Source: Seison nebaliae
Lineage: Eukaryota > Rotifera > Pararotatoria > Seisonacea > Seisonidae
Length of the DNA stretch: 64,000 nucleotides
Assembly: GCA_023231475.1 (NCBI GenBank)
Contig: JALJEE010002959.1
Span: 1-64,000, forward strand
Direction: 5' to 3'
Position 1 is the first letter of the stretch. Every line of letters begins with the position of its first letter. Below are positions 13,969 to 55,053 of this stretch, piece by piece. The notes under the pieces are model-generated. The model saw nothing but the letters and a program-made list of their open reading frames with translations. It was not told where the DNA came from and ran no database searches. A program made the position numbers and the translations under genes.

Positions 13969-14544
13969 AATTCTTACTTATCATTTATAATTCATAATTA
14001 ATATCTTTAAACTTAAAATTCAAACGATATTCCACTTCTCATTTCCTTCATTGTTATCATTTCCATCATTTACCTTTTTCCCACCAATTCAAATTTTCTA
14101 CTTAATTTCCAAATTTACATTTTGACTACTCAATTCATTTTTTCTCTTATTTCTTCTCAATTAGACTTATTATTACTATCATTCATTTCTACTTTCCATC
14201 TATATATTATAATTTATTATATCATCTCTTTTGGACTTTTTCTGGAATTGATGGAAGTCTGAATTGGAATTGATGGATTTCTGATGGAATTTTGAATTTT
14301 TCTTAAACTTTTTTCTTGAAATTCCTCTACAACCAAATTACTAATAACAATTCGAATATCATCTATCGTATTGATTTAATGATTTTTATCATGATAATTT
14401 GAAGTAACTTCCATAATTTTCAAATATTCAAATTTAACGAATATTCAAAATTTTTTTTTATTTCTCTAAAAGAGAATTTAAGAAAATCTTTTCAGTATTT
14501 TATTTCACTTTCAAATAAGAATTTGTAGAGAAAATAAAGAGAGT
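13969..14544. other. Spacer between WDR24 and the RING gene
   Basis: AT-rich, no gene seen. It should hold the WDR24 promoter and the 3' UTR of the upstream RING gene, both minus strand. Confidence 0.4.
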
Positions 14545-26864: not shown

Positions 26865-29859
26865 GTGTCAATGGATGGTATTAAATTGATGAAGTTTCAT
26901 TTCACATCCAATTTCCAAACAAACCGCAAAACCACCAACAACAACAATCGATATTATTCTTACCATAATAAATTTCATTTCAATATATTCCTGTTCTACG
27001 GTTGTCTCACCATATTCGTCAATGGATTATTCGCTCAATCATCATTCCGTTAGAATTCGTCATCTGTTGCTGATTCTCTTTAACGATTCTTCTCCAGTCG
27101 AATTTCCATGGCAGAAATTTACAATACGACAATATGAAAAAGCATATCTATTTTGTCGTAAACATCATCCGTCCAAATATACGGTCACATGGAAGAAGCG
27201 ATCGCCGGATGATTCAATACAGAAGATTCTTTCAATTAATTCCGATTATGAATTTATTGATAAATATCATGAAATCTTAAAGATCGATAAAATACTTCAG
27301 AAACATTCTGGTACATATATTTGTCAAACAAATGCAGGTGTCAATGAAGTGAACGTGAATGTGATACAAAGTGAATATTTTCATTTTTTATTTTCATCAA
27401 TTTCTCATTCTCTCATCAAATCGTTTAAGATTCCCCAAATATTTTCCGTTTGAAAAATTCGCAGCAATCAGACGAAACGAGAACCATCGAACTTGGTACG
27501 AGAGCTCAGATACTTTGTCGAATCAAAGAATTTTATTTAAATATTAATGTTTTCTGGTTTCACAATTATCGTCTACTATTAACTGATAATCGTCGTTCAA
27601 TTGGTACCAACGGTAATTCTTTCCATTTTCCACTTCGCCAAATCATTCACACATTTTCATATATCCCCAATTTAGGAACGCTCATCATCCATAAGAGTGA
27701 CGAAAGTGATGACGGAGTTTATATGTGCTCGATCGTTATGCATCGAAATGAAATCATTTATTCTCCAACAACCACATTGAACGTCAGAGGTTTCTTTTTT
27801 CTTCTTTCAACAATTTACAGTGAAATAACTCAAATCATAAATTTCAGAACGTGAAGTACATCCATATATCACTCGAATATTTATCGCCAATTATTTCTTG
27901 AAGAGTTCCGTCGATAAATCAGACAAATCGATAACGAACTTCTTCATGCTACCATTTTCTGGCGAATCGTTACTACGTCCGAAAAAACCGATTTTATTAA
28001 GTTGTGTGGCGAACGGTTCTCCACTACCCAAAGTCGAATGGCGACAAAAGCCAAGTTATTTTTCATAAATTCTTCTATAAATTTCAATTGTCGTCGATAG
28101 ATAATCGATTATTGAGAGATAGTGATCCATTAAGAATACGATCTGTTACTAATATCAATGATCTGAGAGAATTATCGTCATCAATCTCATCTACCTCATT
28201 CTATGCCCAAGCGATAATTTCGTGCAGTGCAAAGAACCGTTTAGCGACATCGACGATAATGATAAATGTTAATTTTCCATCTAAACAATTACCGAAACCT
28301 GTCGATTTGATGATTCGTGTCAACATTCCCAATTATGTGGAAGTTGAATGGAATATGAATGAAATAATTTATTTCTTCTTAATCGAACCCAAATCTTCCT
28401 GTAATAATTTCCATTCGACGGGAAATTATGTTGGGAAATCATTAACGTCAGCAACCTCATCGAAATATTTCAAGGAGTATTGTCAATCGAATACGGAGCA
28501 GAAAATGAATAACATTCTCATCAATGATGATGTGGTCTTCTCCGATGAATATAATGCACAATATAATATCGATTCATTAATTTCGTCCAAATCATCGACA
28601 AATTTCAATTCGCAAATGAATGTCAGAAAAGTAGCTCATTTGAATCATTTCAATTCGTTAGGTATTGATCACTTCCAAATTAGAACGTGCGAAGTATTTC
28701 GTCGTTCTTCCATCAGCACATATCACGTACCATTATCCCAGACACTGTGTCTCAATCAAACGGTGAAGATGCAGGATTTCATTATGAATCATCGACGCGT
28801 AACAGTTAATTTATTCTCTTCAATTCTATTTCATTTTTACTTTATTTTTTATTTATCAAGTTAAAAAATTTGAAAAGTGCAACATCATACGCTACACACG
28901 TCCTGGCTCATAACCAGATTTATGGTTATGGTAAAGCGTCGGAAGCACTGATTTTCCGCACACATCGTTCATCTAATACCAGTTGGATTTTCGACAATTG
29001 TTTGCTTAATCTATTCAAATGATTTTTATAGTTAATATTAAATGTCGAAGTGTAACGGCAATGTCGGTGAACGAATCAGTAATATCGTTAGGATGGAATG
29101 TTTATGTTCATAAAGAAGAGGAAGTATTCTTATCAGTTCGTAATATTTCTTTGAAATCACTTTCACTCAATTCTCTCTCTTTAAGTATTTCAAGATGTAT
29201 TATACCGCTGGTCTAGGTAGTCGTCATCCGATGGAATCCTGGACAGTTCATCGAACTGATCATTTATTATTCCAACAAAACTTTTTGGTTGATGCCGAAT
29301 TACTGGAACATCATCATATTTATGTGAGATTGTGTGCATGCTTATCGAATGGACTTTGTGGAACATTGTCCGACGTTCTCACCATCCCAATTGACAATGT
29401 CAGATCAAACCGTTTCACATTTCATCACTTTCGTCATCGGTCGACTAATTTGACTTTTTTAATTTTCAAAGCGATCAAAGCTAAATATGAAATTTTGGAT
29501 TTTAAAGGAGAAGTTCTCTCATCAAATTCCCTATTTGTTCATTGGAAGATGAAGGGCATTGTATCACCAAACGAACCGTCACGTTATCTCCTACAATTTT
29601 GGTACGATGATGAAAAAATGAGTTTCGTAGAAAAAATTCCGAATTGAATTGTCAATAATTTTCGTTTTGAAGGAAATGAAAGTCGATTGATTGTCAGAGA
29701 CATTTCCTCACAGATTCGTTATCTTACTAAAAGTGTACGATGGTCGATTGTGTTGGATGATCTATTATCGTATAGAGCATACAATTTGCAATTGCAATTG
29801 GTGGATAGGAAAGCTGATATTCTTGCAGTAAGTAATATTGTTTCATTAAGAACTCGAGA
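26865..29859 (+). CDS. Lar: LAR-type receptor phosphatase, cluster 1: signal, Ig1-3, FN3 1-3
   Basis: Proposed exons: 26865-27048, 27098-27370, 27472-27789, 27848-28054, 28101-28798, 28861-28981, 29032-29135, 29186-29411, 29472-29621 and 29673 to 29827 or 29859. Phases agree at every join. After a long leader, FNIFLFYGCLTIFVNGLFAQ is a signal peptide. Ig1 has YLFCRKHHPSKYTVTWKKR and SGTYICQTN. Ig2 has NVFWFHNYRLLLTD and DDGVYMCS. Ig3 has ILLSCVANGSPLPKVEW and IISCSAKN. FN3-1 opens with LPKPVDL, as LAR's first FN3 does (LPKPPIDL). FN3-2 has MYYTAGLG and a W strand like LAR's VYYTPDS. FN3-3 ends in SNIVSLRTRE. LAR is a cell-surface receptor for heparan sulphate and synaptic ligands, acting in axon guidance and synapse building. 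The first two Ig domains normally bind the ligand. Two ends are possible, see the next feature. Confidence 0.82.
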
Positions 29860-29869
29860 GTATTGTTAG

Positions 29870-29983
29870 TACATTATTTATTCCTTCATCATTCCGTTTG
29901 GCACCATTGCGGCCATTATATGTCAAAGACGTAATAAAGCACAAGATATGCTCTGTTCTCACGACTTGATGTCGGGAACATAA
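29870..29983 (+). CDS. Possible alternative last exon: membrane segment and short tail
   Basis: If the strong donor GCA-GTAAGT at 29828 is used with the acceptor TTGTTAG ending at 29869 (a 42-nt intron, phase 0 both sides), cluster 1 continues with YIIYSFIIPFGTIAAIIC, a good membrane helix, then QRRNKAQDM and a stop at 29983. The positive residues directly after the helix suit a cytosolic tail. This would give a membrane-bound Ig3-FN3(3) protein with no phosphatase. It could also be chance reading in a long intron that starts at 29860. Confidence 0.4.
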   Translation, partial: YIIYSFIIPFGTIAAIICQRRNKAQDMLCSHDLMSGT

Positions 29984-30437
29984 AGAAAAATGATTCTTCA
30001 TCACAACAATTTCTTGATGATAGTATTTGATTGTTGATTTTGATTATCATTCACATTTCCTTATTTCATTGTGCAATTCTTCAGGTGCTTTCCACATTGT
30101 CGCCCACACCATCACTCACTCGAATCGCAAGAGACTATTACCAGAAAAATAATAATGAAAAAATTTTATGTTCATCAATGAACGAATGGTTAATAATCAT
30201 CTCTAATGATTTTTCAGAATTAAATGTTTATTTCCCAATAAAACTTTCTTTCCTGAAATTAGTTGAGATGACAAAAATTTCCAACACCAGTTCGTTCGTT
30301 CGTTTATTTTTGGAGGAAAATTTCCATCCAAATTTCCATTACCAATCGTACTGAGAACATTAGGTAACGGAAGTGTCGAATTTCATAATTTATTATTTGT
30401 TTCCAACTTTAATTCCTTCCCAATTTACTTCTTACTC

Positions 30438-30475
30438 GTCTTCTTCTTCTTTTTCTTCTCCTTCTTCTTCTTCTT
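30438..30475. repeat. TTC trinucleotide microsatellite
   Basis: Imperfect TTC repeats. Reads as a Ser run. Confidence 0.85.
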
Positions 30476-30777
30476 TACGAGGGAATTGCGGGGAAGATTT
30501 CCCAATAACTAAAGGTAAAAATTTCAAGAGAATGATGAGACACTCAAAAGCTGACGAGTAATTTCTCGTATGGGTCAGGCGTGAAAAAGAATTTGTTTCT
30601 TTTTCTATCCTTCATCGTCGACCTGCTCTAACAATAAGTAAGTTATGGAAATTATGAGAACTGCCATCCTGAATTACTAAACTGATTTTCTTCTCATTCT
30701 TCATCATCTTCTTTTTTCCGAAGAAATGAAATTGTACTTCCGCCAATTGAAAGCGAAACGTATCAATTAGGTTCATC

Positions 30778-30821
30778 GATGATGACGACGATGATAATGA
30801 TAATGATGATGATGATGATGG
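30778..30821. repeat. GAT/GAC trinucleotide microsatellite
   Basis: Imperfect GAT, GAC and AAT triplets. Confidence 0.85.
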
Positions 30822-33800
30822 CATCAACAATTAACATCCATAACCTACACACAATAACCGAAGTTAGCTAATATGAAGTGGTACTTGTGAAAATGAAGAA
30901 AATAAATAGATAAATAATATTTCGTTTGTTACTCGGGTGTAATGAGTGAACATTCTTATTATTATGATTATTAAGAGAATTGATGAATATCATCCGTATT
31001 AGATGTTTTCTTTAAGTATTGCGATTCATCCAATATACATGACTGAGAAAAAAAAACGAGAGGAATTAATGGGGAAAAAGAAGAATGTTCGTTTAGAAAT
31101 CGTTTGGGATAATGTCGACAATTGTTTGCAATGGGAAACGCAAAAGGAAAGGTGACGAGGCAAAAGAATTATTCTTCTTCTCGCAGGCAACTTATATTGG
31201 AATGAGGAGAATTGTTTCTACCCATTTTCCAGAAAGATGTAAGTACCAAACAATAACAGGAAAAAATATGAAAATCTGTATTACCTGCCAAAGGCACATG
31301 ATGATGATGATGATCGACTCCATCATATCGACACACTTCGTTCTTTTGTGGCGGTAGAGGAATATGACTCTGTTCAACCCAATTTCTGATAATACTGATA
31401 ATAATCATAACAACATATATGATGACGTTACTGATGAATTTTAATCAGGTAATTTTTGTCAAACATAGTGATAAATCTCACGTTACTATCTATATATATC
31501 TGAACATGCTCAATAAATAAATTTGTATTAAGGCAGTTCGATTGGCAATGAATATTATTTCTCCTTTCCGCGAATAACTGATTTTCTCCTTCCTGCAAAA
31601 TTTCATTCGATTTCAACGATTGCCACATCTTAGTCGAAATTTTCTGGAAATAAATCAAATTCTTTTCAACTGCCTCTCAGTTGTTGGTCGATTGTGTGGT
31701 AAGTTCGATAATTTCCGGAAATAATCTCTCCATTTCCTTCATCGATAAATTTAATAGATGAATTTAATTGGAACTGATTAGAATTTGAGTAAGAAACTCA
31801 TTCCCCGTTCGACTGTCGAGTTATGTGACGAAATTGAATGATATGAGTCGATGAAAGTTCTGCCGACGACACTCCTAATCGTCGATACACGTGAAAATGA
31901 TTCACTTTCCACATGTTTCTCAGGAATGCTTTCTCATCGATTCCATCGCCGTCCTCTTTCTTTATTCTTTCATTAGAACTAATAATTAATGGTCGTTCAT
32001 CTTCAGAGAAATCAATAAATTATTATTCCAGTTCCACTCATTATCTTCATTATATTTTTCGTGTTCATTATTATAAGGCAATTCCCGCGGAAATCGTCAA
32101 AAGAGAATTCTATACAATAATTAGATGGGAGAAAAATAGTCTAATGCAATTTAGTGAGAGGGTAGTCGATGTACAATCATTGATTTTTATAAGGCCTCAC
32201 CATGCGGTTTTTCTATTTCATTTCTAAAATTGTACGACATCGGTTCGTTTCATCTTTGTTTAGTTTCGCACAAATGATTATTCTAACATTATTCTCACCA
32301 ACATCTCTTTCGTTGGCCACTGATTCCTTCCACTGAACATACATCTGTTATCATCATTATTTTCCATTCTCACCATCACAACCATCACCACCATCACCAT
32401 CATTGGAAGAATTACCATAAAACTCAAAAGAAAACTTTCCCCCCATTTGGAAACGATGTTGGGTCCAAGAAGAGGAATATCGAAATATCTTCATTGAAAA
32501 ATGATTAAATTGCATTCGAATGAACAATTTCTCTAATTGTTCTACCGACGACTATCAAATGGAACCATTCACCTCATATCAATTAGGAAGGGGTTGGAGA
32601 ATGTGAGAATTTATCGATCTTCTACCAAATGTTTAAGTGATGTTCTGGAGGAGATTTCGATGTAAGTAATATCCGAACGAAAACTTATTCTTCTCCTCCA
32701 ACTTCAATTAATTAAAATCGTTTTAGATTTCTTCATACATCTGTCTACAAAATGAAAAAATTTGACGTTGATGACCGGCATCGTTTCTTTATGTAAATAC
32801 TATGTCATCGATCTGTAAATGAATTCTGTCCGATTACGAGAAAATGAAGAATGTTTGTAAACAATCAAATTATCCCCTCTTTCTTTACTGTTGTTATTTT
32901 AATAATTCTTCTTATATTCTCATTCTTCAAATGTTTATTTTGTCTGTTTTCATTAATTATCATCGAATTCGATATTCTTCTACCATTTCACGTTCATCCG
33001 TTTTACCAGGTAATTTATCGTCATATCTCTTTCCATTCATGCATATCTGGAATGCCGAAAGTTATCTAATTCCATTGAATTTGTTCCAATGATCATCGAC
33101 ATTTCAATAATCACTCTAAACATTTCAAGATGGGTTTTCCTTAAAAGAATTTTTTCAAATTTCAAATTTAATTTCAACTTTTATTCTATCGATTTTATAA
33201 TAATAAGAATTTATTCATTGATGATGGAAAAGGTGTATGTTTCAGGGAAAGATTTATTTGATTTTATTTCGAATTTCCGAAGGATTTAGATGAAAATGAT
33301 AATGAGAATTTTAGAGAAGAATATTTAATTTATTATTCGTTCATGAACGAATGAACGATAATTACTCTTGTGTTGTTGTTGTGTTTAATAGGATTTGAGA
33401 TGTTCATCTAATGAAAGCTTTAGTGAAGAATTGCTAAAGATTTCCGCATCGATCTCTTGCAAATGTTGATGGTTATTATTGAAAATTTCTTATATTCGCC
33501 AGTTATTTGTTTTGGATGAAACTTTTTAGTTATTTCTCTCTTAATTTTCTGTCTAATTCATCTATTGATGTTTTCTTCTTTCATGACGAAGATACATCGT
33601 CATAATATCTCACAATTCCTTTCCGGAGAGAATGTTCCTCCAATTCTCAATTTATTTATATTTCCCCCGCTACCAGAGACATACAAACGTAGACGATTCG
33701 GAATAACATTGATCATTCGTTCCTTCTACCACCTGCGAACCTGTTTTGTTTTTCGTTTTTTATAAGAAAATCGAAAAAGTTTTTCGGAGAGAAAACCGAG

Positions 33801-36800
33801 AATTCGCTTCTCAATCGCTTTCCTTATTCTTTTATTGATTCAATGGAGACTGGAAGTCATGTCGATATTGTGCAGGTAGTTAAACAAGTAGGGAGAATAG
33901 TTGAATAATGTTTGAGGAGAATGAATTCTTTTAAATTTCTTTTTTATAGATCATCGATTTTTTTCTCGACATTTCTTAGTCAATCTCCGATTCTTATCTA
34001 TTAATCATTGACATAATTCATTTGCTAACCATTAATAAATGAAATTTTTTCTTTTGTTTCATTATGATTGTTTTCCTTCTAATACAATATATTCATTAAC
34101 ACATAATCGACCTTTTCTGTAGAGATTGCTATTTCGTAGTTGTATTGGAGGGACAATACTACCATGATATGCATCGCCACTTCTCTTACACTCCTTATTT
34201 ATCTTACAAATAATCAATCGATTACATAACAATTTAAGCACATTTATTTTAAAGAAAGTGTAAGCCAATTCAAATAAGACTCCATCAAATTATCTTTCAT
34301 TTGCCATTTCTTATGTTTATTCGTCAACTTTCAGCCCTTCATCTCCGAATGGAAATGAAAGATTAGAACGGTTAATTCTCCTTCTATCTCTCTCGAACGA
34401 TCGAATGAAGATTTGGAGTGAAACTCTCAAAATATTTGTTAATCTTTCCAAATTAATTTCTTTCATATCAATCTCACTTGTCCGTCTCTTTCATTTTGTT
34501 CCCGAGACGGTAATAGTATAAGGATTGCGGTCACTTCACAATCGGATTAGCAAGAACAATTAACTCGATTCTTTTTGTTGGACATTCGCTTCTTACGGTT
34601 TCACATTCCTCCAACCATTCTCCAACATCTTCTGAAGAAGTTATTCGGCGGAATTAGAAAATTACTGAGAAGAGAATGGATAGACATGTAAAATGATCGT
34701 CGTCGTCGTCCTCCTTGTCCTGTGAAGAGACCGGTAATGTGGTCTGACTATTAGAGAGGATTCCGATTAGGTTTCAGCTCCTGATAAGAGAAAGTTGAAT
34801 GAATTTCGTTTTCTTCTTCTCATTCGATTTTGATTACTACTTGAGGGTACAACATATTAAACTGTTTCTTTTCTTTTTTATAGTCATCATGAAGGCCGGA
34901 AGATTTGGAGAGAATGTAAATTAAAGACTATTTAATACCAAATAAAAGAATAATATGAAAATTTGCACGAAAATAAAATGGAGAGACTTCTAATTACTTG
35001 TCGTCACTTTTTTTCCATACTGTCGTTCTCTTCCGATTCACTTCACATCTGATGTCATACGGGTCGTTTGCCTTCAATCATTCGTTCTGTCTTTTTCTCC
35101 TTCAATTGCATCCTTTCTTATGTGTTTCTATTCTCGTCCGATTGGATTTGTTGAATGTAAACGATTATCTTTTAGACCCATTATTTCCCAATTTACTTTT
35201 CTTTCTAACTAACGTCAACTAATGAAAATAATTATTTCGATTATTAACTTCTGATTTCATTTCTTTTTCGTGTTTTTATCTCCTCCATTTCTTCTCCTGT
35301 CATCCTCTCCCCTCCTTATCTTGTTGTTCATGGACGATAAAAAGAAAACTTTCCATTTATCTTACGCCAATGTTTATCCATCTAATTCTTATTATTATTG
35401 GCATAACAGGAACATTTTGCTTTTATTAGAAATCAAGTAAATAAGTCTCTCCTGCACACATCTATACTATATCCGCTCCACCATACATAGATACCTTGAA
35501 GGATTAATAAATTCAATAACTTTTCTTTATTCAACAACTTCTGTCTCCTCAGTTCTCTCGACATCCTTCTCTTCACGCCATCTATTACCAGCCACTCCTA
35601 CAGGTACAACTACCTATATTAACAAAATCAAAAAAAGTTCTTTAATGTATTTTCAGGAAAAGCAAATGAGAAGTTTACTTTATTAAAAGAATCTATAACA
35701 TATTTGTATTATTATGAATATCTTTCCTTTCTCTTCCATTGTTAACATTCATCCCTTACAAAGATTGACAAGGCCGCCAAAATTTTATCTTGTCAACAAA
35801 TGCTTTTCAGAAGAAAACTGAAACTAAACCTCTTCCTTTTCCTTAGATAGAACCTTTTTCACTTCTCTCATGTAACATTTCTTTAGGGATTTACAATTCT
35901 TTTTTCAAAACTAATTCTCCACTCTCTCGAATAAATTGTATGCAATAACCAGAAATGCCACCAACTTGGTGCCACGTGCTATTACATCATTTCACTCGGA
36001 CAGTTCTACTTCCTCAAAATTGAAAAAGAAACAAGTGTCGTTGCTTCTTTATTCCATACCCTTTCAACACAACGACAACTCTCATCAGCACCGTCAGTAC
36101 AGACAAATCAGCAACAAAGCAACAAATCATAACATTTAAATCATGATACACGGTAGAGTAAACTACCGTCGCCACTCCCTCCCCTCACACTACTTTAATT
36201 TTGGAGGGTTATGATTTGTTGGAAATGTCTTTCAGTATTCAGGTGAAAAAAAAAATTTTGTCTTTTCTACTTTTCTCTCTCGTGGAAATGTCAACAGTTT
36301 AGCGTTTTACGTAATTAATCGCATGGGGAAGACGGAACCAGAATGACATGATGTCAATCAGATATTGGTAGGTGAGAACGCGACTATATTTTGGTCATGG
36401 CTGGAGAGACTCCACTTATTTGAATATTGTAATGATTCTAAAAAAAAAATAGTTTTATATTCTTATGGTTATGATTATGTAATGAGAAGAGTAATGTTAA
36501 ATAATTTGGATAAGTTTCATTGTTCATTCTATTTTCTCCGTTTTAATCGAATGGGAAAGTATGTTATTTTATCGAAAACTTAAAATTAATCGATAATTCT
36601 CGGTATTATTCTAATCACCTTTATCCATCTTTTCACATAGTTTTCTCTCTTTTTTTTTTGAGGATAGTAATTAAACATATTTCTTTTTCTTTTTAGATAC
36701 GTTCACTTCGCGCTTATTATTTTATCATTTGTCACTAAACTTAAAGATCGATTGGATTGATATCAACATCAATCGATTAATTCATTCTTATCGATTTATT

Positions 36801-39130
36801 TTCTTCTTTCACTTGAGAACAGAAAAAGGAATTTTTAAATTTTCTTCTTTCTATCACGTGGAAATATTCAATTTTCAATATATTATGTAGCAACATGTAA
36901 TTACCGTAATGAGTTCCATTCTTCTGATATCAGGAGAAGAATTGAAAGAAGAAATTTTACGACAAAATTTCCCAAAATTATTTCAAGAACTTTCCTCTCC
37001 ATTTTCTCCCACACCCAATTTCCACACAATCGACTTCCCATTCATCATGGTAGTCATTCGAAAACAAATTAATTTCCAATGTAATCTTATATCAAATTCT
37101 CTTTATTGTTCTTGTTCTTCCCAAAGAGAAATATCATAATTTTTTCTAACTATCTAATTTAATGTATCATCTTTCCTTATCTCTCGAAATAGAGATACCG
37201 TTTTGCCAATCACTCATTTGGCACCTCTCTCCCGCTTAGGTGTATCTGCCACTGAGAAAGACACTGGTAGATGATATACTTCAAATAATTAAACTTGAAT
37301 ACTAAACTGATAATTATATTTGTCAGATTTTTCGAAACGAAAAATGGTTTCTTTTTTTTAATGTCAATGATCCGACGAATTCATACGATTCTCTTCCTCT
37401 CTCTCAATCTATTTCGGGAAAGATAACGATAATGAAACAGCTAGAACTAATGTTATTCATACGGAACATGTATTACATAGAAATTGTACTTAAATGTCTT
37501 CTACTTAATTGAAAGGATGATTGCTAGTACGAGATGGACATGCGACTCGAAGAATTTAGATTGGAATCGACTGCAAATCAAAAAGAAGAAATGTTTCAGA
37601 AAAATAACTTTCCAAAACTGATTTTTTCATTCTCCCATTATCAGTGATGGTTAATTTCATCACATCGATTTTTTATTGATAAATTTCCCAATCTTATAAA
37701 TATCATACTCGTCATCATGTTAAATGTTACACTTCAACGATCTTCCTTATCGACTCAGATAATGTTACCAAACCATTCCTACCATCATCAACTTTCTATT
37801 AAATGGGACGTTTAATTATTGTATAATAACGTATCTATTCGATGATTATCGATATTTCGAAGAAAATAAAATGGTTTTAACACAAAAAAATGGTATCAAA
37901 TAAATTGTGGTTAATGGGAATTTTAACATTTATTTCATCATTGCCAATTAGAAGAATATCAACTTTTTCTTCAAGTTATTCCATCGAAAGAAGTTTTTTG
38001 AGGAATTCCTTTTTCCTGTCTAAATGACTGAATGGATGGATATCAGTAAGCACTTTGACAACTTGAATTTTTTCTATCTCTCTCAAATCGCCACCTCTCC
38101 AATAAGTAGAGAGTGTCTAGAAATTCTCATCGAGATAGAAGAAGAAATGTAGCGATAGTGCATAAGAATAACATCTCCAATGACAACGAAAGTAGAAGAG
38201 AATATATTCTCTTCCATTATAATAACCGTAATATGGAATGATAATGAACAAGAGGAATATTTGCTCTGCATTCTCCCTAAAAAAAAAGAAACGACAGGTC
38301 GTCGAAATATGAAGTTATGGAAGAGGAACCTTGAAGATTTTATGTTATTTAAGCATCACCTGTTCCGTTCAACATCGATAGTGGTAAATTCCTACTGAAT
38401 TTTATTAGAAATTTTTTTATTAATAATTTTATAGAAATTCGATTGATTCGCTAAAAAATTGTTGTTGGAGAGATCTCGTTATGACGATGACTCTCTTAGT
38501 AATAATCATTATTTTCCTCCTAATGTTTATCGGCAAATAGAAGAGGAATATTAAGCAATTAATTATAATAGAGCAAACGAACAGTAATTTTCTAAACGGG
38601 AATATTATACACATATTTATGTGCAATTCAATGGCAAATTGTTTTTGGTTTATCCAACATTGAAATGAATGAGAATTTACTAAATATTTCTCATATCACT
38701 TCGATTTTAGTTGATTGAGGTAATGCCATATCGACCATATATTAACAAATAAATGGTTTTTTCCTTTTTCCATTTTCCGGTTTCTGCCACCTGACAAAAA
38801 AAATGATTTCATTATATTTTCTTAATTCTCTCGAAATTCCTTTAAAACATTCATTTGGTTTGAGCAAATAATATCGACGATACCAGATAGATAAATCAGT
38901 TGATGTCGAATATTTTTTGATTGAAAGTTGGCGGATGTTTAGTAGATCATCTCGAAATGATTTTATCACATTCCTCACAAGCATTAGTGAGAGCATCGAA
39001 AAATGTAAATTGTATCGAGGATGTCTTTCGGCCATTCTTCAAACCATTTCATTATTGACACAATGTTGAGAGTGATTTCTACTTCCTTTCCTCAACTAAA
39101 ATTGTTCGGGATCTCCAAATGTTTATCTGT

Positions 39131-39171
39131 TTGTGTGTGTGTGTGTGTGTGAATGTGTGTATGTGTGTGTG
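39131..39171. repeat. TG dinucleotide microsatellite
   Basis: About 20 TG units with two interruptions (GAATG, TATG). Confidence 0.9.
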
Positions 39172-43142: not shown

Positions 43143-44582
43143 GTTTAGTTTCTGATTTTTTTCTTCTTCTTTTCTCGAAGTTCGAGACTCGTAAATTATG
43201 TGAATAAAAAATAAGATAAAATTTCCTCATTTACCTCAACTAACTAATGAGAATGATGAAAATGGGGAAGACTATAAGGAGAATAGCGATAATGATTGAT
43301 TTGAATAATCTAATTAAAAAGAAATTATATATAGCAGATCACTTTACCTTCCTCGCAGTCAATGTTCTTCTTCTTTAGCGCAGTTCTTTAACCGAATTTC
43401 ACTTCGACATTCCTCTTTGACGTATCGTTCCACTAAACAAATGGGAATTGGTAAACGAAATAATTCTTCCGAATATTTTCACAAAAACAGCATCTTTATG
43501 GAAATTTAATCGTCTATTATATTTTCAAGAACTACATTCCCTCGTGTGATAAGGTAAAGAAAAAATAATTTCATAATTGTTCTGCGTACCTTCCACGAAA
43601 CAGGAAATGTCAAAAATTAAATTGGTGGAAAGTTACATAAAAAAGAGGAGGGAATGAATTGAGCATAATTTTTTCTTCTTCCAAATGAATTCCTTGTGAA
43701 ATATTTTAGAGTAAGTGTATAGTATTGGGTGAATTATTTAATGAATGAATAATTGTGTAAACCGTTTTCTTTTGCACCGAATAGAATTAAATTCGTAATT
43801 AGTCCAATATCATGATAGAAATTCTTCTAATTCTTTTCCTCCTTCAGAATCAGAAAGAATGACAGTCTCTAGAATTGTAATTATTGTTTCATAAATTTCC
43901 CATTTAAGTATTGAGCATTAGTTCCAATTTAAGAAGGATCTCATCCGTTAAAGTTGTAAGGGGAAATTAATTTTTTCGTTAACATTAATTCAAATTCATG
44001 TACACAAATTCATATTCGATAGGCAATACTCATCTATTGGAACAACCTTTCGAAACCTTCAATTCTCCAATAGGCCAAGAAATTTTTTACGAAAGAAAAT
44101 CTAGGTTGAAAAATCTGGAGAAAATATTTTGAATTTGTTGAACACAGTCCCAAATCAAATCGACGGATAGTTCGTAAAATGTGAGGAAGAAGAATATGGA
44201 ATATTCTTTGCATTTAATTATCTCATTATAGTTCGCATTATATCATAAATTTAGGAGGAAATTCCCCATCTGTCTCGTAGTACATGAAACGCATACTTGC
44301 TATTCTTATATCGATTGTACATGAGCGCTCGTTTTCTTTTATTCGATAACGAATGAACTTGCACTTTACACAATTTCTCCGTAATTTGCTTACGATTGTC
44401 CTTTTATTCATATTAAATTTCCTACTCCACTTCTCCTTTCTCCACCGAACGAAAATGAGTTGGAATATGTATCATATAACTGGAAGAGAAGAACTGTAAC
44501 TATTACCACTATTTTTGGTTTGAAATTGTACATGGTGCCATTATACTTGAATAATAAGGAATGTACAACATATTTAGTTATT

Positions 44583-44619
44583 CGACGACGACGACGATGA
44601 TGACGATGATGACGACGAG
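44583..44619. repeat. GAC/GAT trinucleotide microsatellite
   Basis: CGACGACGACGA passing into GATGATGAC triplets. A TTG repeat follows at 44737-44760. Confidence 0.85.
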
Positions 44620-45670
44620 GAACCTAGGGCACCGTAATAGAATTATGGAATAATTTCTTGTGTTATTTGTTAATCAATTCATTACTCTCATTTTTCCATA
44701 TGAAAAGCAATATATTCTTCTATGTGTATCATATGTTATTGTTGTTGTTGTTATTGTTGTGATCATTTATTATGATTATTATCAATATTTACAATTTTTA
44801 TCAAGCTAAAAGATATAGAGTATTATTCGACTGATCACAATGGACGATTTATTCGTACGAATATACATCTGTGAGATTATCCATAGATGCATTAAATAAA
44901 AAGTATCGTTTCTTTTATATGAATCTGGGAGAGGTCCCTATAGATATACAGTCGAAAAGTAGAAAGTAAAAGTAGTCTCAGAAAAAAATACAGTCTAATT
45001 TTCTTCTTCTTTCTTCATCGAATTCTATATGACAAAAAATAAAATAAATTTAGAAGAAAAAACTTTCTCGCACACTTCCTTTCACCATATCCTTCTTGTG
45101 ATGTGTACCAGATATTATTATTAGTATAATTATTATTATTTAGTACAATCTTTCATATCGATCAAATAATAATTTCCACCAACATTCGAAATGGAGGAGA
45201 TTGGTGTGCAGAAGTTCATCCTATTCGATTGATGGAGAAGATAGAGGACGATATGTATATGCCGACACGGAAACATGTGACTTGACTGCTGTAGTTATAT
45301 CGGAAAAGTAATCAATTCTCGATTTCTACTATGTTCCACTGATAATTCCCATTGGAACTGAACATATCTTTATCGAAACGTCAATCGATCTAATGAATAG
45401 TCTCATATTACTATTTATGTAGATTGAGCTTACATCCTTACTCTGCACGAAAAATGCTCGATGTATTTTATGAGTTTAATTAGAACGTATTGATCGATTG
45501 TCGTGTGTATGCAAGAGAAGAAAAGAATGCCACAAACTCCATTTAACCAGAAGCTGTCGGGAATAGCGGGCAAATGACAAACCGATAAAATTTAGGACAT
45601 ACCTATTCAACTGATCGTACATACTCTAACTGATATGTATTTATGGTTTTATGTTTTTCTAATGTATATA

Positions 45671-45688
45671 AATATATATATATATATC
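45671..45688. repeat. TA dinucleotide microsatellite
   Basis: Nine TA units in the presumed LAR intron. Confidence 0.8.
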
Positions 45689-48600
45689 TTCGTTCCTTCA
45701 TTCGTTCGAGAACGAATATGAATGATGAATGCATGATTCTTCCATTTTTCCGTTTCATTCCAGTTTAATGATATTTATTTATGTAAAAAAGAATTTTATG
45801 AGTTTTATTTGAAATATTTAATATTTCTTCCGATCATTCGTCCAATTTTATAATCAAAATGCAAATCATTCAGTTAATTACAATCTCCAAACAAAAACAT
45901 AAACACCAAACTAATAAACAACTTTTTAAATCGATATCCGATCTCCTTCTCTTTCATCAACTCATATAATTACTTTAGTTAATTCCTAAATTAGTTTAAT
46001 CACATCTAATCCTTTTCTTTTGTTTTCTCAAATTACAGTTATCGAATTATGTTTTATGAGAACATCACTCTCATATGAGTAGTTTGATATTCATTTTTGA
46101 CCAATAACGAGCAGCAGCTGCACCCTATTCAACGGAAATGTATCTTGTGGTTATTAATCCGGTTTTCTTCTTCACCTATTCTCTACTGCATGAATCCATC
46201 AATTATTGTGCAATATTAGGAAATAGACGACATCATTGCTCGATATATATTTATGTGTGCGTGTGTGTGAGGAGAGTAATCTGAGAAAGAAATAGTATTT
46301 GTAGGAAGAAGGAACTGTTGTTCGTGCAGTCATCGAGAATTCATATATTGAATAGTTGAGCATGCAATTTCATTGTATAAGTGGATTTGTGACAGAAAGA
46401 ATGAGAAAAAGGAAGAAATTCCTCTTCTTCCCATGCTCAGGATTAGGTGGAGGGGTAGAAGGAATAATTTTTAAATGAATTTCTGATTCTTAAATTGTAA
46501 GGATGAAATGAGAACGAATTGTGTCAGGAAATAAGTAGCATAGAACAATTGAAGAATAAACTTTTATTTGAATGATGTTTCCTCTCACGCTAAAATACTA
46601 TTAAAAAAAAGTAAAGAAACAATTCCGCTAATAAGTGATCGTCGAGAGAAATATCGATATCATTCGTCCGTTTCTCGTCTACTCAATCGAAGTTTGTAAC
46701 GGTAAGACTAACTAATATTAGTTATATTGCCACAATCAACAACTTAATACTACAATCTGATAGTGAGCGAATGATTGGGCGGACTAAGTGAAAGTTCTAC
46801 TGTACACACGAGTAATATGGGAGAAACCATACATTTTCAGTAGTTCAACTACTATGGATATTTGAGAGGAAAAAATGAACGACTCTCACAATTGCATAGT
46901 GATGACAAAACCGATTTATATACATAATTGTTATTTCATTCTACATTGTAGTTTCTCCTTCAGAAATTTGACGGAATATGTGATGAATATATGAATATCT
47001 CCTAGAGAATATTTATTATTCCATATCATTATTTATTTCCACTTTTTTCTCCTTTAACTTTCTCATTCCTCTTTTTCGATTTTCAATCGAAAGATCCTCG
47101 CCCGTTTTCCTTCGATTGACTTCTCCTATTAGCATTTTCCGTTCAATGAACATCATTTCCAAACTGACGGGAAGATGTAGTACTATATGTCCTGTGTGCC
47201 CAACTTCGGTCCCAGTTGTTATTAAATATTACAATGATTAGATAGACAATTGGAGAATGGAATATTCATTTTTTCCTTCCCCCCTCCTCCCATTGTTCTC
47301 AGCTTCCCCAACTATGACGAAATAATTGGTAAGAATCAACTGCAAATTGTCATTGTATTTCCTTCGTTATGATGCCTTTTTCTCCTCCATTCTTCTCCAG
47401 CGTGACATCGACAGAAATTGACAGCGGAAAACATCCTAATCGTACTAGAGGAAAGAAAAACGGTTTTTTTTTCTGGTGATAATTCACTGAAAAGATTGAT
47501 ATGCACTTAATGGGAGTTAAAGAAAAATAAAGAATACATTCTCTTCAAATTATCTAATCATGCCAATATTCTCCCCCATTCATTGCGCAAGCATTATTCG
47601 ACGGTCGATAGTTACATGTTTTCTCTTAAGAATAACGAGACACAACTGCATAAGTAACGACTCTGAGTAATTGGAATGAGACATAACCAATATTCAGGAA
47701 ATAACCTTATACTTCACATTTATGAAACTTTCACATATATATCTTTCCAATTTCCTCACAACAAATTAAATTTTCTTTCTTTTCATTTATTGCAACAACC
47801 AATTTCACATTGTAGTAATTTTTTAAAGAAATTTAATATAATTTTTGTTAATAAGAATTTAACCATTTTTTTTTAAATTTTTTCAATAAAAAGTAAATGA
47901 AGAACATTAGAAATCGAAAAACTATTGTAGATTGGATGGTGAGATGTGATGAAAGCAATCCCCATAAAAAATCTCAATATTTTTTAATGAAAGAAATGAA
48001 CGAAATTGAAATGAATGTGCTAAAACTGATTTGGCATGTTAGTTGAGGAAATGTTGGTGAGTGTTCTACTAGTACACAGTTTGATAAGGAGGATGATGTT
48101 CAGGGGATAAGTGTAGATTCGATGTTCATAACTCATATGTCGTTCATTAAGAATAGGAATTGAGAAGGAGGAAGAAGTGCGAATTTAATTGTTCCAATTT
48201 CCTCAATTTTTTTTAGGAATAATACAAAATTCACGCCCTTTTGGTTAGATGACGTCGTTTTCTGATTTGGTATTGAGATCGACGATACCACTAATAATGT
48301 TCGTCACACATTCTCATCTGAATCGATCTTTCGTATTATTATTCATGCGATTGAGGGATTGTAGGAGCGCATCATCTCTACCTTCGGCATTATTGTCCTC
48401 TCACTCGACATTTCTTTTTTTCCATTAAAAATTGTTGATGGAATTCCTTATTCATTCATGTTTCCCAATTCCATCGTCAATGCCCCCAATCTTTCCTAAT
48501 ATAATCTGTGCATTTTAATGAAAAATATTAATAATAAACGGTAATATTCGGAATATATTCGGGAAAATAGAAGACGACAACACCCAATTGACTGTTATAA

Positions 48601-49577
48601 GAAAATTTTATATTCCACAATCATCGTTTAGATTCTGTTCATTTAATTTCGAGAGATTATATCAGAATGTTGAACTGAGGTGATTTGGAACATTATGAGA
48701 ATATAATTAATATTTATTGATTAGTTTTTCTTCGCTTGTTTCTTGTTTTTCCGATTCAATAAGAATAATAAGTTGGAGAGAAATGATTAGAATCTTTTTA
48801 ATAGAAAGGAGAAAGTTAATTTCCTTTTGAAGTCGAAAGGAAATGGATGGCGTTCAATTAGAACATTGTCCAAGAGAGTCGTCCCTAACCATCTAATGGT
48901 TTGGGATACAATGAATGTTGGTTGTTATGTTGCCTTAGTCGATGATGGAGATGAAATGGATTTTTAAGGAAGTGTACTGATTTTTTATATTCAAATGAAA
49001 TTATCTTTCTACTACGTATCATATTTACTCCGTGTTTTCCCTCCCACCGACATTATCTAATATGATGGAATCATTTAGCAGAAAGAACAATATCAGTATG
49101 AAAGGAAATTATATTTATGAATGTTACCTTTATTTATGAAGAGTAGTAACCACTCTTCTTCTATTCGATTCGTGAACATTCACTCCAATTGAGCGATCTG
49201 AACAATGTTTCAATGCACATAAACCAGAGTGACAATGTGCACGTTTAATGTAGGAAGTTGCTGAACATATTAGTCCATGGCAGGGGTGTTAGAAGAGACA
49301 AGTTACTTGTATTATCTCCCACGATAATACAAGTAATATAGAAGACGAATTTGAAAATGCTTCTCATTTCTAATATTGGAAAAACATTGCTGGTGGTAAT
49401 AATGTCGGAGAATACTGTCATTTCCTTTCTAATAAAATTTTCTTATTAGAAATTCTATTGTGTCAATATATTATGCAATAGGTGCTTGTTCGATCATACT
49501 ATCATTCTTCGATATATGACACGTTCTAAATTAATGTCGACATCTACCCATTTGCATCATGGCGAATGATGGAATTT

Positions 49578-49609
49578 TTCTTCTTCTTCTTCTTCTTCTT
49601 CATCTTCTT
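49578..49609. repeat. TTC trinucleotide microsatellite
   Basis: Near-perfect CTT repeats, 440 bp before the alternative first exon. Confidence 0.9.
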
Positions 49610-50046
49610 TCCACATTATCATCGTTGTGATGATGTGAACATGAATTATGCGAATTAACGAATTTCATAATGAACATGTTATGATGAATCAACTGGGCGA
49701 CTGGTAGAAAGGAAACGATAATTGAAATGAAGTTATTGATCTCTTGTTAAATTATCAGAGTTTCATCATGAGAATCGAAATAAGACAAATTCAATTCTTT
49801 TAATCGAATTTGTAAAACTCATCAGAACTCCAATGAAGATCTCTTCTCTAACGATCTGAGAAGGAATTCATTCTCTCCTTGCCATTTTAATACTTATCTC
49901 ATTATTCACTTCATATGAATTAGATAAATTACCTTTCTCCGTTTGGTGTGTGTTGATGAAAACATTTCTTTGTTATCTATCAAAGAAGATGGAAATGTTT
50001 CGTCGAACCATAAATTGACAGTCGATGACATGAACATTATTCGGAA

Positions 50047-50260
50047 ATGTTCTTCCATTTTATTCTATTACTTCGATGGCCAATGACGATATCTTATTTC
50101 AACATTACTTTCATCGCAATTCTTTTCGTGCTCATGAGAACTACACGTCTCACTTCTCCTGGAAGACACGACGTCTATAAGAATGTCTACGAAGATATCT
50201 CGAAGAATGTCGACGATCATGTCCTTTACACGTACGAAGCGAAAACTTCCAATATCAAAG
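50047..50260 (+). CDS. Possible alternative first exon of a short LAR isoform
   Basis: ATG at 50047 (a second Met at position 13) opens a frame with the hydrophobic stretch YFNITFIAILFVLM followed by RTTRLTSPGRHD, a plausible signal peptide. About 45 polar residues follow. The frame reaches a donor AAAG-GTTTCA at 50261 in phase 1, which is the phase needed by the acceptor TTTTTTTTTTAG ending at 50492. Joined to cluster 3 the frame closes exactly at 4722 nt (1573 aa). Nematode ptp-3 is known to make a short form from an internal promoter, lacking the Ig and first FN3 domains. This exon would produce the same kind of receptor. Confidence 0.5.
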
Positions 50261-50492
50261 GTTTCAACTCCTACCATTCCCAATCATCGAACCTTCTGAG
50301 AAGATAAATTGAAAAATTACTAAACTTAATACTAAAAAAATTTATGGAAATAAAAAGGAAATTTAATTTTTTAGGAAATTAAAGAAAAAATTATTAAGAA
50401 ATTCCATTGACATATTTGAAGCAGTAGAAATTCTATTAAACTTCTCCTTTTTCACTCTTTCAAAACAATTTAATTATTAATTTTTTTTTTAG

Positions 50493-53400
50493 AATCGTTG
50501 GACCAACCAAATAATCTGGGATTATCACACATCTCTCCAAACGCAGTACGAATTGTGTGGGAAGTGCCACATGTGATGGAAAGCAGCACAATCGCATCAT
50601 ATCAAGTACGCTACAAAATAGTGACGAGAGAATATCATGGGAACCGTACAAAGACACCAGAAGGCCTCCTCTTATCTGATTCGAATTCGAATATCACCAA
50701 CACCTCTTCCAATTTCATCGAGTTGCATCATCTTCAACCGGAAACTGAATATATCATCCAAGTGACACCGTGGCTACAAATTGCCACCTCCGACTATCAG
50801 AGTCCAATTACTTTTCATATAGAAAAAGGGAAATCGTCGGAAACTTTTAGTTTCGTTACACTTTCCGTTAATCAACCAGCACCGCAAATTATTCGAGTGG
50901 ATCGACCTGATCCAGGTACTATCATCAATCTGGAATGGGAACCTGTGCGCGACATTTATGGACGACACGTTCCCGTCTATCGTGTCTGGTATTCGGATGG
51001 TGGTCATTGGAATGAAGTCGTCGTACCTAATCGAACGCAAATCCGTTTGACGAATTTGCGGCCTCGTGCCAGTTATATTGTAGCGGTCCAATCTACATCT
51101 TTGAGAGGAAATACTTTAGTGTTTGGGAACATGTCCGAACATCATGTATTACGTCCTTTCACCGGTTATATTCATGATAATGATATACCGAAACCGATCC
51201 GTTTACAAATTATAGAAATGTCGGCCGATTCCGCCAAATTGAGATGGTTCGAACCGATGTTCCCTGATAGTCATGAAAATCGATTGAAGAGTTATATCAT
51301 CACATATGGTGGTAATGGCGAGAAGAAGTTTGTGAATATGTTCGGGAAAGAACAATCGTTGAGAATTGAAAAGAAGACGACTAATCGAATTCCTGCAAAT
51401 CAAAGAAGAACCGATTGGCTAATAACGAATTTGGAACCGAATACTCAATATTATTTTAATGTATCATCAGTGACAAATGACAATCGTATAAGTCAACCAA
51501 TATCCGTCATCAATGCGACGAAAGAAAGTGTACCAAAATTTTTAACGGCACCGGCTGTAATCGGTGCAGGAAAAGGCAATGTAGTTTGGTTGAAATTAAC
51601 ACAAACTACTCAGAGATATGGAAAGGTAAATTATTATCTTCTCTTTGTTCTTATGCAGAATTCGAGCGAACGAATCAGTACGAATTCTATACATCTATTC
51701 GACGACCGTAATGTGTTGAGAGATCGACGTCAAGATATTCCGTTCGACATACATGAAATTTATTCGGTCGATTCTCTCAGAAATCGATACAAGAGAAATT
51801 TGAAGTCAGATATCACTTATCCAAATCAGAGGAATGATTCGTTATATATTTCGGCGAATATATCGAGTGAAAATTTCGTTAAAGAATTCCCGTTAGGTGA
51901 TGGAAAATTTTATAATAATTTTATCAATCGAAAACTTCATGACAAAGTTTTCTATCGTGTTTTTTTGAGGGCGTGTGGCAATTCTGATCAATCTAATCAT
52001 TATGTGAGTAGTACGTTCAGTAACTGGTTCACCACGAAAGATGTCTACAAAACGAAAACGTCAGGAGTTTCGACGAATTTGCGCAATTCGTCAATCTATG
52101 ATGGTTTGCATGCAGGTAATAATTCGGGTGATAAACAAAGAAAGAATATCAGTCTAATTTGGATTATTGGAAGTGTTTGTGCAATCATCTTCTCCTTATT
52201 GATTTGTGTGTGTGCCATATTATTTTATCGAAGTAATTATGGAAAACGAAAGAGCCATAATCGAAACCGCCATATTCATCATCAGAAGAATGAAGAACAA
52301 AACGGTCTGATTAATGGGAAGATATCGAAACGATTAAAACATCAACAACAACTTGATGCGGAGCAGACGCAATTGCAGAATGAATATAAAAATATTATCG
52401 GTAATGATTTACATCCAGATGATATTGATGGTCAATTGAATCAGATGGATAACTGTAAAATTCCATTAGTTATTTCAGAAAAAACTAATAATGCTTCCGG
52501 ACTAACTGCCAATGGAATCACTAACAAGACAACAGCAACAACAACAACCACACACATGTCGAATAATATGACAAATACATTGCACATAAATAAGAAGAAC
52601 AACAACAACAGTGACAATAAAATGACGAATGAAATCGATAATGAGATGCGAAATCATTTTAAGTTGATACAAAATTCAAATTCGTCAAATTGTCCAAATC
52701 CGTCGTCGAATATACAAAACGGAAATTTATTAACTGTTGGCGATGCGAATCAACAACCGACGGATTTGTATATTTCAACCGACTGTGTATTGACGAGTAG
52801 TGCTGGAAATGGTACGGGAATCTCCGAATTATCATCAATGGCATTATCGTCGTCCGGTGGATTCTATAATAGTTCGATGCCTTTCCACATGAATGAGAAG
52901 AATCGATTAAAAAGTTATTGTTCAGCAACGACCGCTAATAATGATCCGGTAGATGCAGTGGAAGCATTGAGATCACAAAATACGAATACATCGTTACATA
53001 TGCATCCTCCCATACCAGCAGAACGATTACAATCGTATATCGAATATTTGAAGACGAATGATTCCATAGAATTGACAAGAGAATATGAATCGATTGAAAC
53101 GGGACAACAATTCGCTTGGAATATTTCCTTATTACCACAAAATCGATCGAAGAATCGTTATGCTAATGTCGTTTCATATAATCATTCGCGAGTGATATTA
53201 GAACCTATGAATTCGAATACTAAAAATATACTCTCCCCATCTAATCTCGGTACATCATCATTAGATGGTGAAAGTAATGATTATATTAACGCCAATTATA
53301 TTAGTGGATATCGTCGATCGAAAGCGTACATAGCAACTCAGGGACCATTACCAGAGACGTTTGTTGATTTCTGGAGGATGATTTGGCAAGAGAAGACTCC

Positions 53401-55053
53401 CATAATTGTTATGTTGTGTCAATTGGAAGAGAAGAATCGTATTAAATGTGACCAATATTGGCCGTCTCGTGAAAGTGAACAATATGGGAATATTGTCGTT
53501 CATTTATTAGAGTGCACCGAGTATGCATACTTTACTATACGTCTCTTCCGTCTTCATTTGATGGATCCAATGAATCAGGAACAATCCCAACAACAACCAC
53601 AACAACAACAATATCATCAAGTTAGACAATTTCAATATACGGCATGGCCCGAACATGGCGTACCAGAATATCCAACGGCATTTATTATGTTTGTTCGACG
53701 AATTCAAATTTGGAAGAGGAAATTATTCGAACGACAATATTTAAGTGATTATTCTCATGATGAATTCTCCACACCATCACCCAGTACGACAACGAACACG
53801 AACAATACAATCACAACCGCTACAACTACCACTGGATCGACTAACCAAATCTCTCCTAATAACATTCCACCAATCGTCGTGCATTGTAGTGCTGGTGTTG
53901 GACGTACTGGTGTTTATATCGTACTCGATATAGCACTAGATCGAATGAGTCAAGGTGAATTGAATGTCGATATTTATGGTTATGTCACTCATATGAGATC
54001 TCAACGCAATTATGTTGTGCAAACGGAAGAGCAATACATGTTCGCTTATGATGCGACATGTGAAGCAATCGAATGTGGTGAAACGGTTGTACCAGCTCAT
54101 CTTTTAAGAAATCATGTACATAAACTATTGAGATCGGTAGCAAAAGCAACTGCTTCCAATTATTCAGCCGCTTCACTTTCCGTCACAGAAATGGAATTGG
54201 AATTCCGTCGTCTCGGTGCTGTTAAAACGATTCCGGCGAAATTCACGGCTGCTAATATGGTTTGCAATAAATTCAAAAATCGGTTAGTCAACGTCCTCCC
54301 ATCGGAATGGAGGAGAGTTCCACTCAAATCCGTTTTCGGTGTGGATGGAAGTGACTATATCAATGCGAGTTATATTGATGGGTTTTGGAAGCAGCATGCT
54401 TACATTGCCACACAGGGACCATTAGCTGAAACGACCGATGACTTCTGGAGAATGTTATGGGAGCAGAATAGTTGTATAATTGTCATGTTGACGAAATTAT
54501 GTGAATTGGGTCGAGAACGATGTCATCAATATTGGCCGTCGGAACGATCTGCTCGATATTCATATTTCATTATTGAATTCGTTGCCGAATATTTTATGGG
54601 TCAATATATTTTACGAGAGTTCAAAGTGTGTGATATCAGAACGCAGGAATCACGAATAATTCGACAATTCCAATATCTCGATTGGCCGGAACAAGGCGTC
54701 CCCAAATACGTCGAATGTTTCATCGACTTCATAACGAATGTACATAAAACGAAAGAACAATTCGGATTAGAAGGACCGATCACTGTTCATTGCAAGTTCA
54801 TCAATTTCTTTCTTATTCTTCTCTTTCAAATTTCTCCATTTTTTCTAGTGCTGGTGTTGGACGTACAGGTGTCTGTATTGCGCTAAGCGTAGTTTTGGAA
54901 GAGATAAAATTTGATCAAACAATCGACATATTTCAAACCGTACGACTGTTAAGAACACAACGACCAGCTATGGTGCAAACTGAAGATCAATATCAATTCT
55001 GTTATCGGTCTGCCCTCGAATATTTGGGATCAGTCGAAAAACCAAATACATAA
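50493..55053 (+). CDS. Lar: LAR-type receptor phosphatase, cluster 3: FN3 7-9, membrane helix, D1 and D2
   Basis: Exons 50493-54795 and 54849-55053. Three FN3 domains are followed by the LAR juxtamembrane region, with NRYKR as the likely proprotein cleavage site and [12 protein letters not shown] (human FTLGDKKNYRGF). A helix [20 protein letters not shown] spans the membrane. About 240 residues rich in Asn, Thr and Gln come before D1, against about 70 in human LAR. D1 has [34 protein letters not shown] and QTEEQY, but its acid loop reads [10 protein letters not shown], with Glu for the catalytic Asp. A Gln-rich insert precedes that loop and a Thr/Ser-rich insert precedes the HC motif. D2 has [16 protein letters not shown] and WPEQGVPK. 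Its P-loop is split by the 53-nt intron and reads HC-N-AGVGRTG. D1 normally dephosphorylates substrates under the membrane; D2 is regulatory. Confidence 0.95.

Follow-up and report, generated by a model that had tools for sequence, protein, structure and literature searches.

Three exon clusters of Seison nebaliae most likely form one LAR receptor phosphatase gene with a candidate internal start and a WPE loop in D1

Introduction

A stretch of 64,000 nucleotides from the rotifer Seison nebaliae (assembly GCA_023231475.1, contig JALJEE010002959.1, positions 1 to 64,000; hereafter the window) carries the exons of a LAR receptor, a type IIa receptor tyrosine phosphatase, in three tight clusters that lie far apart. 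Do these clusters belong to one gene with two long introns, to one gene with several starts and ends, or to several genes? A sequence-only reading of the window had left the choice between these possibilities open. Here we show that the three clusters are most likely one LAR gene with long introns, and that fission into three genes is unlikely. We lean towards a gene that combines its long introns with at least one internal start, as predicted from the sequence; the presence of such a start, best placed at 42136, is judged somewhat more probable than its absence. While the layout of the locus is itself of a known kind, the WPE loop of its first phosphatase domain, D1, is the unexpected part.

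A single open frame through three exon clusters

The clusters were read by eye, open frames were listed and splice sites were scored with a generic matrix. Automatic gene finding overfitted or wandered, and spliced alignment to a LAR profile, which could be trusted in conserved regions alone, put spurious exons into the gaps; exons were set by hand from script outputs and checked for frame. The hand model opens at ATG 26871 and comprises 18 exons and 17 introns. It takes the junctions 29859 to 41322 and 43142 to 50493, together with 15 further hand-placed introns, and reads as a single open frame of 2,736 aa (26871-55053, + strand) with its sole stop at 55051-55053. As the sequence-only reading had it, the clusters stand in LAR order, with gaps of 11,462 nt and 7,350 nt between them, and its claim that direct splicing across both gaps is phase-compatible is confirmed by this frame. 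The parts are the following.

26871-29859 (+ strand): cluster 1, with an N-terminal hydrophobic leader, Ig1 to Ig3 and FN3-1 to FN3-3 (hand model, Ig and FN3 matches)
26871-27048, 27098-27370, 27430-27612, 27676-27789, 27848-28054, 28101-28762 (+ strand): cluster 1 exons, first part
28861-28966, 29032-29123, 29186-29411, 29472-29621, 29673-29859 (+ strand): cluster 1 exons, rest
29860-41321 (+ strand): long intron 1, 11,462 nt, phase 2, between FN3-3 and FN3-4 (hand model)
41322-43142 (+ strand): cluster 2, FN3-4 to FN3-6 (hand model, Pfam, LAR profile test)
41322-41851, 42191-42330, 42384-42534, 42579-42851, 42912-43142 (+ strand): cluster 2 exons
43143-50492 (+ strand): long intron 2, 7,350 nt, phase 1, between FN3-6 and FN3-7 (hand model)
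50493-55053 (+ strand): cluster 3, FN3-7 to FN3-9, membrane-proximal region, transmembrane helix, and phosphatase domains D1 and D2 (domain searches)
50493-54795, 54849-55053 (+ strand): cluster 3 exons

Other splice sites are available here and there, donors 29864 and 43030 among them, and single junctions may be off; the weak donors 28966, 29411 and 29621 were picked for phase fit. The donors of the two long junctions, GA|GTATTG and CA|GTTTAG, score 0.41 and -1.81, values that are spanned by those of the other 15 introns (-2.48 to 5.50). Since some weak donors were chosen for phase, the safest comparison is with the D2 intron 54796-54848, whose position is fixed by the conserved P-loop and whose donor scores 0.14.

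The long introns stand out by their length. Among the other 15 introns of the gene, 14 measure 44-98 nt and one measures 339 nt (41852-42190). In a comparison of five taxa across 100 BUSCO genes, those of S. nebaliae and Adineta vaga were the most compact. Neighbouring Ion_trans matches (at least four) on six contigs span 5-8 kb from first to last, and introns of 7-11 kb look unusual by this comparison, which covers few gene types and is no intron census. Cadherin, FN3 and I-set matches on four contigs (C660, C732, C695, C487) sit in single open reading frames (ORFs) of 3,454-7,612 aa, which suggests that large genes of this genome can have few introns. The genome searched has 36.0 Mb in 846 contigs and differs from the published GA2 assembly (43.9 Mb, 3,301 contigs). 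On another of its contigs, C110, residues 150-545 of a Shaker-type channel ORF show 100% identity to SNEBB_010402 of S. nebaliae, a seisonid rotifer; a search of the genome for COX1 gave none. The GC content of the window is about 32%; passages of PMC8351084 give 31.9% for the published S. nebaliae genome B assembly.

Identity of the domains

Cluster 3 leaves little doubt about the family. D1, D2 and FN3-7 to FN3-9 are clearly recognised, and the solved relatives closest to D1-D2 are PTPRS, PTPRF and LAR (E down to 9e-209). D1-D2 is 48-54% identical to its homologues among the matches listed, which are mostly PTPRS. From FN3-7 to about the transmembrane helix, identity to the best matches, spider and snail LARs, is 23-24%; this search gave 6 proteins at E <=0.001 among 6,108 candidates. 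A tblastn search with spider LAR found colinear matches to Ig3 (E 0.03), to FN3-5 (E 0.002), to FN3-7 through the membrane-proximal region (E 1e-26) and to D1-D2. PF00102 has 24 matches genome-wide and the top two are D1 and D2 of this locus, which is likely the sole LAR of the genome.

The more N-terminal domains are more divergent. Nine domain pieces were compared with a profile of seven LARs, with z computed from 100 shuffles each. Scores against the LAR profile segments are high for Ig2 (18), Ig3 (19) and FN3-5 (25), and weaker for FN3-2 (6.6), FN3-4 (5.5), FN3-1 (5.0), FN3-6 (3.2), Ig1 (2.9) and FN3-3 (0.3). The corresponding LAR segment ranked first for five of the nine pieces, namely Ig2, Ig3, FN3-2, FN3-5 and FN3-6. 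Only Ig2 and FN3-5 passed the curated Pfam cut-off; below it lie Ig matches of Ig1 and Ig3 and fn3 matches of FN3-3 (E 0.0026) and FN3-1 (E 0.14), and Pfam gave no fn3 match for FN3-2, FN3-4 and FN3-6. The FN3-5 exon matches other FN3 domains of spider LAR about equally well, and the fold of FN3-4, predicted without an alignment, has a mean pLDDT of 37. Ig structures of PTPRD and PTPRS match the Ig domains of cluster 1 in order, with neurofascin and DSCAM scoring higher.

Three N-terminal Ig domains are recognised, Ig1 being weak against LAR. As for the FN3 series, FN3-5 and FN3-7 to FN3-9 are clear, FN3-1, FN3-2 and FN3-4 reach a moderate level in the profile test alone, and FN3-3 and FN3-6 are weak. 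Three Ig and nine FN3 domains are the best reading of this ectodomain, with FN3-3 and FN3-6 the least certain. The earlier statement that every LAR domain occurs once and in the usual order stands for the order, while the count is a good reading and not a proven one.

A candidate internal start ahead of FN3-5

An in-frame ATG leader with a KD10 of at least 2.6 precedes 2 of the 17 acceptors of the LAR gene, 41322 (2.6) and 42191 (3.88), and both follow introns of outlying length (11,462 and 339 nt). The second of these is the strongest candidate.

42136-42190 (+ strand): candidate internal start 2, MMYFLSTKFLILFILLII, running into the FN3-5 exon (KD10 3.88)

This leader, with ATGs at 42136 and 42139, lies inside the 339-nt intron 41852-42190 and runs into the FN3-5 exon at 42191. 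By eye it resembles a signal peptide (MMYFLSTK-FLILFILLII-VPS/EP). Cleavage of signal peptides follows the (-3,-1) rule, and the V-P-S with which the leader ends, ahead of E, fits it. ATG 42136 has A at -3. From this ATG, an open frame of 1,785 aa runs through FN3-5 to FN3-9, the transmembrane helix, D1 and D2. Leaders were compared with control DNA, 20 stretches each 10 kb long from as many other contigs, in which ORFs of at least 120 aa were masked. There, a KD10 of at least 3.8 was reached by 3 of 4,761 acceptor frames with a score of at least 2.5 and by none of 2,646 with a score of at least 3.5; a leader of this strength would turn up at one of 16 acceptors with a binomial probability of 0.010.

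The sequence-only reading had proposed that clusters 2 and 3 each begin with an ATG and a hydrophobic leader. ATG leaders do exist for cluster 2, but the one at 42136/42139, on the FN3-5 exon, is better than the reported pair. For cluster 3, an ATG leader exists too, but on a separate would-be exon that joins the cluster through a donor at 50260. The starts at 41251 and 50047/50083 are weaker candidates than 42136.

41251-41321 (+ strand): candidate internal start 1, MRSTNKWAQTAYQLIAVIASVSFS, running into the FN3-4 exon (KD10 2.6)
50047-50260 (+ strand): candidate internal start 3, the weakest, a would-be first exon with ATG 50047 or 50083

The leader at 41251 is near chance. By eye it is acceptable as a signal peptide, its codon usage ranks within the highest 1.5% of the open segments in the control, and two TCAGTY motifs (41176 and 41219) lie within 80 nt upstream of its ATG, where the background in the gaps is about 0.0003 per nt. 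TCAGTY is the arthropod-type initiator, which rotifers may or may not use. Start 3 would be spliced from the donor AAG|GTTTCA at 50260, in phase 1, to 50493. Products from 41251 and from 50047/50083 would have 1,967 aa and 1,573/1,561 aa, respectively.

In the reading that we prefer, splicing out of both long introns would yield a full-length transcript that encodes three Ig domains, nine FN3 domains, the transmembrane helix, D1 and D2 (2,736 aa). A second transcript would begin just upstream of 42136, with the hydrophobic leader there acting as its signal peptide, and would yield a short receptor of FN3-5 to FN3-9, transmembrane helix, D1 and D2 (1,785 aa). The long introns would have been kept most likely for regulation and for at least one internal promoter. 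The sequence shows the open frame, the phases, the order of the domains and the leader statistics; that any of these junctions or starts is used in the animal is an inference.

A possible alternative: an ordinary gene with a single promoter

The nearest competitor, which we consider a serious though less probable account, is a LAR gene of the ordinary type: it would have two long introns but a single promoter and a single end, and its leaders would be by-products of T-rich sequence ahead of acceptors. Such tracts encode F, L, I, V and S, and ATG leaders with a KD10 of at least 2.6 do arise by chance: they precede 52 of 4,761 control acceptor frames with a score of at least 2.5 and 30 of 2,646 with a score of at least 3.5. 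That all leaders are polypyrimidine artefacts was tested against this control and could be kept only in part. The 42136 leader is stronger than nearly all controls, and contiguous leaders were confined to introns whose length is outlying. Two leaders with a KD10 of at least 2.6 at 16 acceptors have a binomial probability of 0.013.

Several observations nevertheless weigh against the reading that we prefer. The leaders were already known when the tests on them were designed. The rate of leaders with a KD10 of at least 2.6 is higher in the non-coding DNA of the window itself (13 of 705 acceptor frames), and one such leader at 16 acceptors would occur by chance with a probability of about 0.16. 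The codon usage of the 42136 leader is ordinary (top 75% of control open segments), as is that of the 50083 leader (top 25%), and neither looks coding-like. This test is weak: two accepted LAR exons reach just the top 9% and 17%. Excluded from it are exon 2 of cluster 1, the FN3-5 exon, and the end and tail of cluster 2. ATG 41251 has C at -3. The 50083 leader (MTISYFN-ITFIAILFVLM-RTTRL) has arginines just after its core and is without a clear cleavage site; it is a poor signal peptide because positive charges follow the hydrophobic core. A phase-1 spliced leader like 50047/50083 stands before 3 of 193 control acceptors, and at least one would be met by chance in 22% of cases at 16 acceptors and in 4.6% at 3. 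Against a single gene, the junction 29859-41322 is in phase 2, and the five other intron-bearing FN3 boundaries are in phase 1. Finally, long introns may simply hold enhancers.

The protein databases add a further point for the single long form. A database with at least two S. nebaliae entries, searched with lengths of 808-2572 aa admitted, returned no LAR of this species, which fits an annotated protein of more than 2572 aa, and also fragments or no annotation. The short products (1,967, 1,785 and 1,573/1,561 aa) would fall inside this range and the 2,736-aa model outside it; the result weakly favours a single long model. The idea of one gene with alternative starts and ends is supported in part, by leaders at 2 of 17 acceptors; the alternative membrane ending of cluster 1 is not clearly above chance, as detailed below.

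The end of cluster 1 and an unlikely fission of the gene

A gene split, or splitting, into two or three, with separate products for adhesion (Ig-FN3), for the FN3 domains of cluster 2 and for a short receptor phosphatase, seems improbable to us. Apart from the ATG leaders at clusters 2 and 3, such a division would draw on the possible endings of cluster 1, either at the TAG at 29867-29869 or, through a 42-nt intron, in a membrane helix.

29828-29983 (+ strand): putative alternative end of cluster 1 (weak), a 42-nt intron followed by a transmembrane helix and a short tail

That cluster 1 can end in a membrane helix of its own, as the sequence-only reading had suggested, is possible through the 42-nt intron 29828-29869, but its donor (29827) scores 4.95 and its acceptor (29870) a poor -0.27, and it deletes the last strand of FN3-3. 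In addition, the helix is not clearly above chance. Of the positions in gap 1, 251 of 10,530 begin an open segment of at least 24 aa with an equally hydrophobic helix, as do 82 of 6,630 in gap 2 and 220 of 11,380 in 15.2-26.7 kb; the rate is thus 1.2-2.4% in non-coding DNA of the window. We regard this membrane ending as unsupported. Without the 42-nt intron, cluster 1 reads into the TAG, and it is possible that retention of intron 1 gives a protein of 795 aa that ends there.

Several results go against fission. The full frame through all clusters is intact, and no ending of its own was seen for cluster 2 beyond the next in-frame stop. The gaps are without any ORF of at least 110 aa, and no tRNA or Rfam match was found anywhere in the window. 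At the DNA level, 30500-35500 gave just short, mostly simple-repeat matches to the whole genome, and 43300-49900 gave six short matches besides itself. Two tblastn matches of spider LAR in gap 1 are at chance level (E 6.7 and 2.3). A transposon or another gene was considered, and none was seen in the gap stretches tested by ORF scan and DNA search. With the frame intact and no gene seen in the gap stretches tested, nothing positive speaks for the proposed three genes except the leaders and the gaps themselves.

The phosphatase loops

The single LAR gene that we favour would encode a receptor with an altered catalytic loop.

53645-53665 (+ strand): D1 catalytic loop WPEHGVP, codon GAA, WPD in homologues (homologue alignment)

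The loop reads WPD in 126 of 126 homologues, a redundant set made up mostly of vertebrate PTPRS isoforms with five spider sequences and one snail sequence. While the P-loop and the KNRY loop of D1 are both present, the WPD-loop aspartate expected of an active classical PTP is replaced. Among six other PTP loci of the genome, both that show the loop have WPD and the four others gave no pattern match. According to passages of PMC10901363 and PMC2638020, PTPN21 and several RPTP D2 domains have Glu where the WPD loop would hold its general-acid Asp, and PTPN21 is often called a pseudophosphatase and may have weak activity (PMC10901363). D1 of Seison LAR is predicted, from its WPE loop, to be a weak or inactive phosphatase, a change of this kind being known to impair related enzymes severely. 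It resembles these proteins in having Glu for Asp, and differs in that theirs are non-receptor enzymes or D2 domains; in Seison the Glu lies in a LAR receptor, in the D1 next to the membrane. In D2, the P-loop HCNAGVGRTG (54788-54855, spanning the intron 54796-54848) has N where 126 of 126 homologues have S. HCN is also found at another PTP locus of the same genome, L008 (HCNDGAGRTG).

It is conceivable, and we put it forward as a speculation with a small but real chance, that this is a near-inactive LAR, with WPE in D1 and D2 and a changed P-loop in D2, which was retained for adhesion and has three or four nested N-termini, including a phosphatase-free cluster 1 form, from promoters in both long introns of an otherwise compact genome. 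That the locus is under relaxed constraint, with its 5′ modules no longer expressed, would agree with the two loop changes (D1 WPD to WPE, D2 S to N) and with the very divergent ectodomain (23-24% to the best matches from FN3-7 to about the transmembrane helix), but it is the least credible account of all, as the 2,736 codons of the hand model, which was admittedly chosen to be open, contain no stop or frameshift and splice sites can be placed throughout.

Comparison with known LAR genes

The closest parallel to the favoured arrangement is the ptp-3 locus of C. elegans. Passages of PMC4418752 describe three transcripts from this locus with an independent promoter each, and a PTP-3B composed of five FN3 and two phosphatase domains. 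Expression is seen from a reporter that carries the 7 kb upstream of ptp-3b (PMC6133548), and PTP-3C is inferred to act in gonad migration (PMC12445740). As in C. elegans, one LAR locus in Seison could yield a short isoform from its candidate internal start, five FN3 domains with D1-D2 from 42136, with the architecture reported for PTP-3B. The two differ in that the internal starts of Seison are predicted from sequence alone, and in its nine FN3 domains and the WPE of its D1. PTP-3A of C. elegans has eight FN3 domains.

Other LARs share the full-length plan. LAR of the spider Parasteatoda tepidariorum (P0121, 2,033 aa) has three Ig and, by eye, nine FN3 domains, followed by the membrane-proximal region, transmembrane helix, D1 and D2 in the same order, and the main D1-D2 stretch is 51% identical (tblastn). 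In contrast, the ectodomain is 23% identical over the matched part, and Seison has a longer juxtamembrane region and loop insertions. Vertebrate PTPRS, PTPRF and PTPRD have the same type IIa D1-D2, at the 48-54% identity given above for the matches listed, with WPD in D1 where Seison has WPE. Among the matches listed are vertebrate isoforms with lengths near 1,500 and 1,900 aa. The shorter vertebrate type IIa isoforms lack FN3 domains.

A short LAR form is described for nematodes and vertebrates and is reported as not obviously present in Drosophila (PMC4418752). If the FN3-5 start is real, a short form would also exist in a gnathiferan, which would speak for an old origin of nested LAR promoters. 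For Seison, which lives epizoically, passages of PMC8351084 report marked gene loss. Should D1 be inactive, its LAR would have dropped the enzyme and kept the adhesive part, and would offer a natural test of how far LAR function needs phosphatase activity.

Neighbouring genes

Downstream of the LAR locus, 56173-57672 (+ strand) matches an amiloride-sensitive sodium channel (PF00858) in at least two open frames. Elsewhere in the window, a PIG-S homologue occupies 9663-10817 on the minus strand and lies beside a WD40/RING ORF of 1,041 aa (10855-13977).

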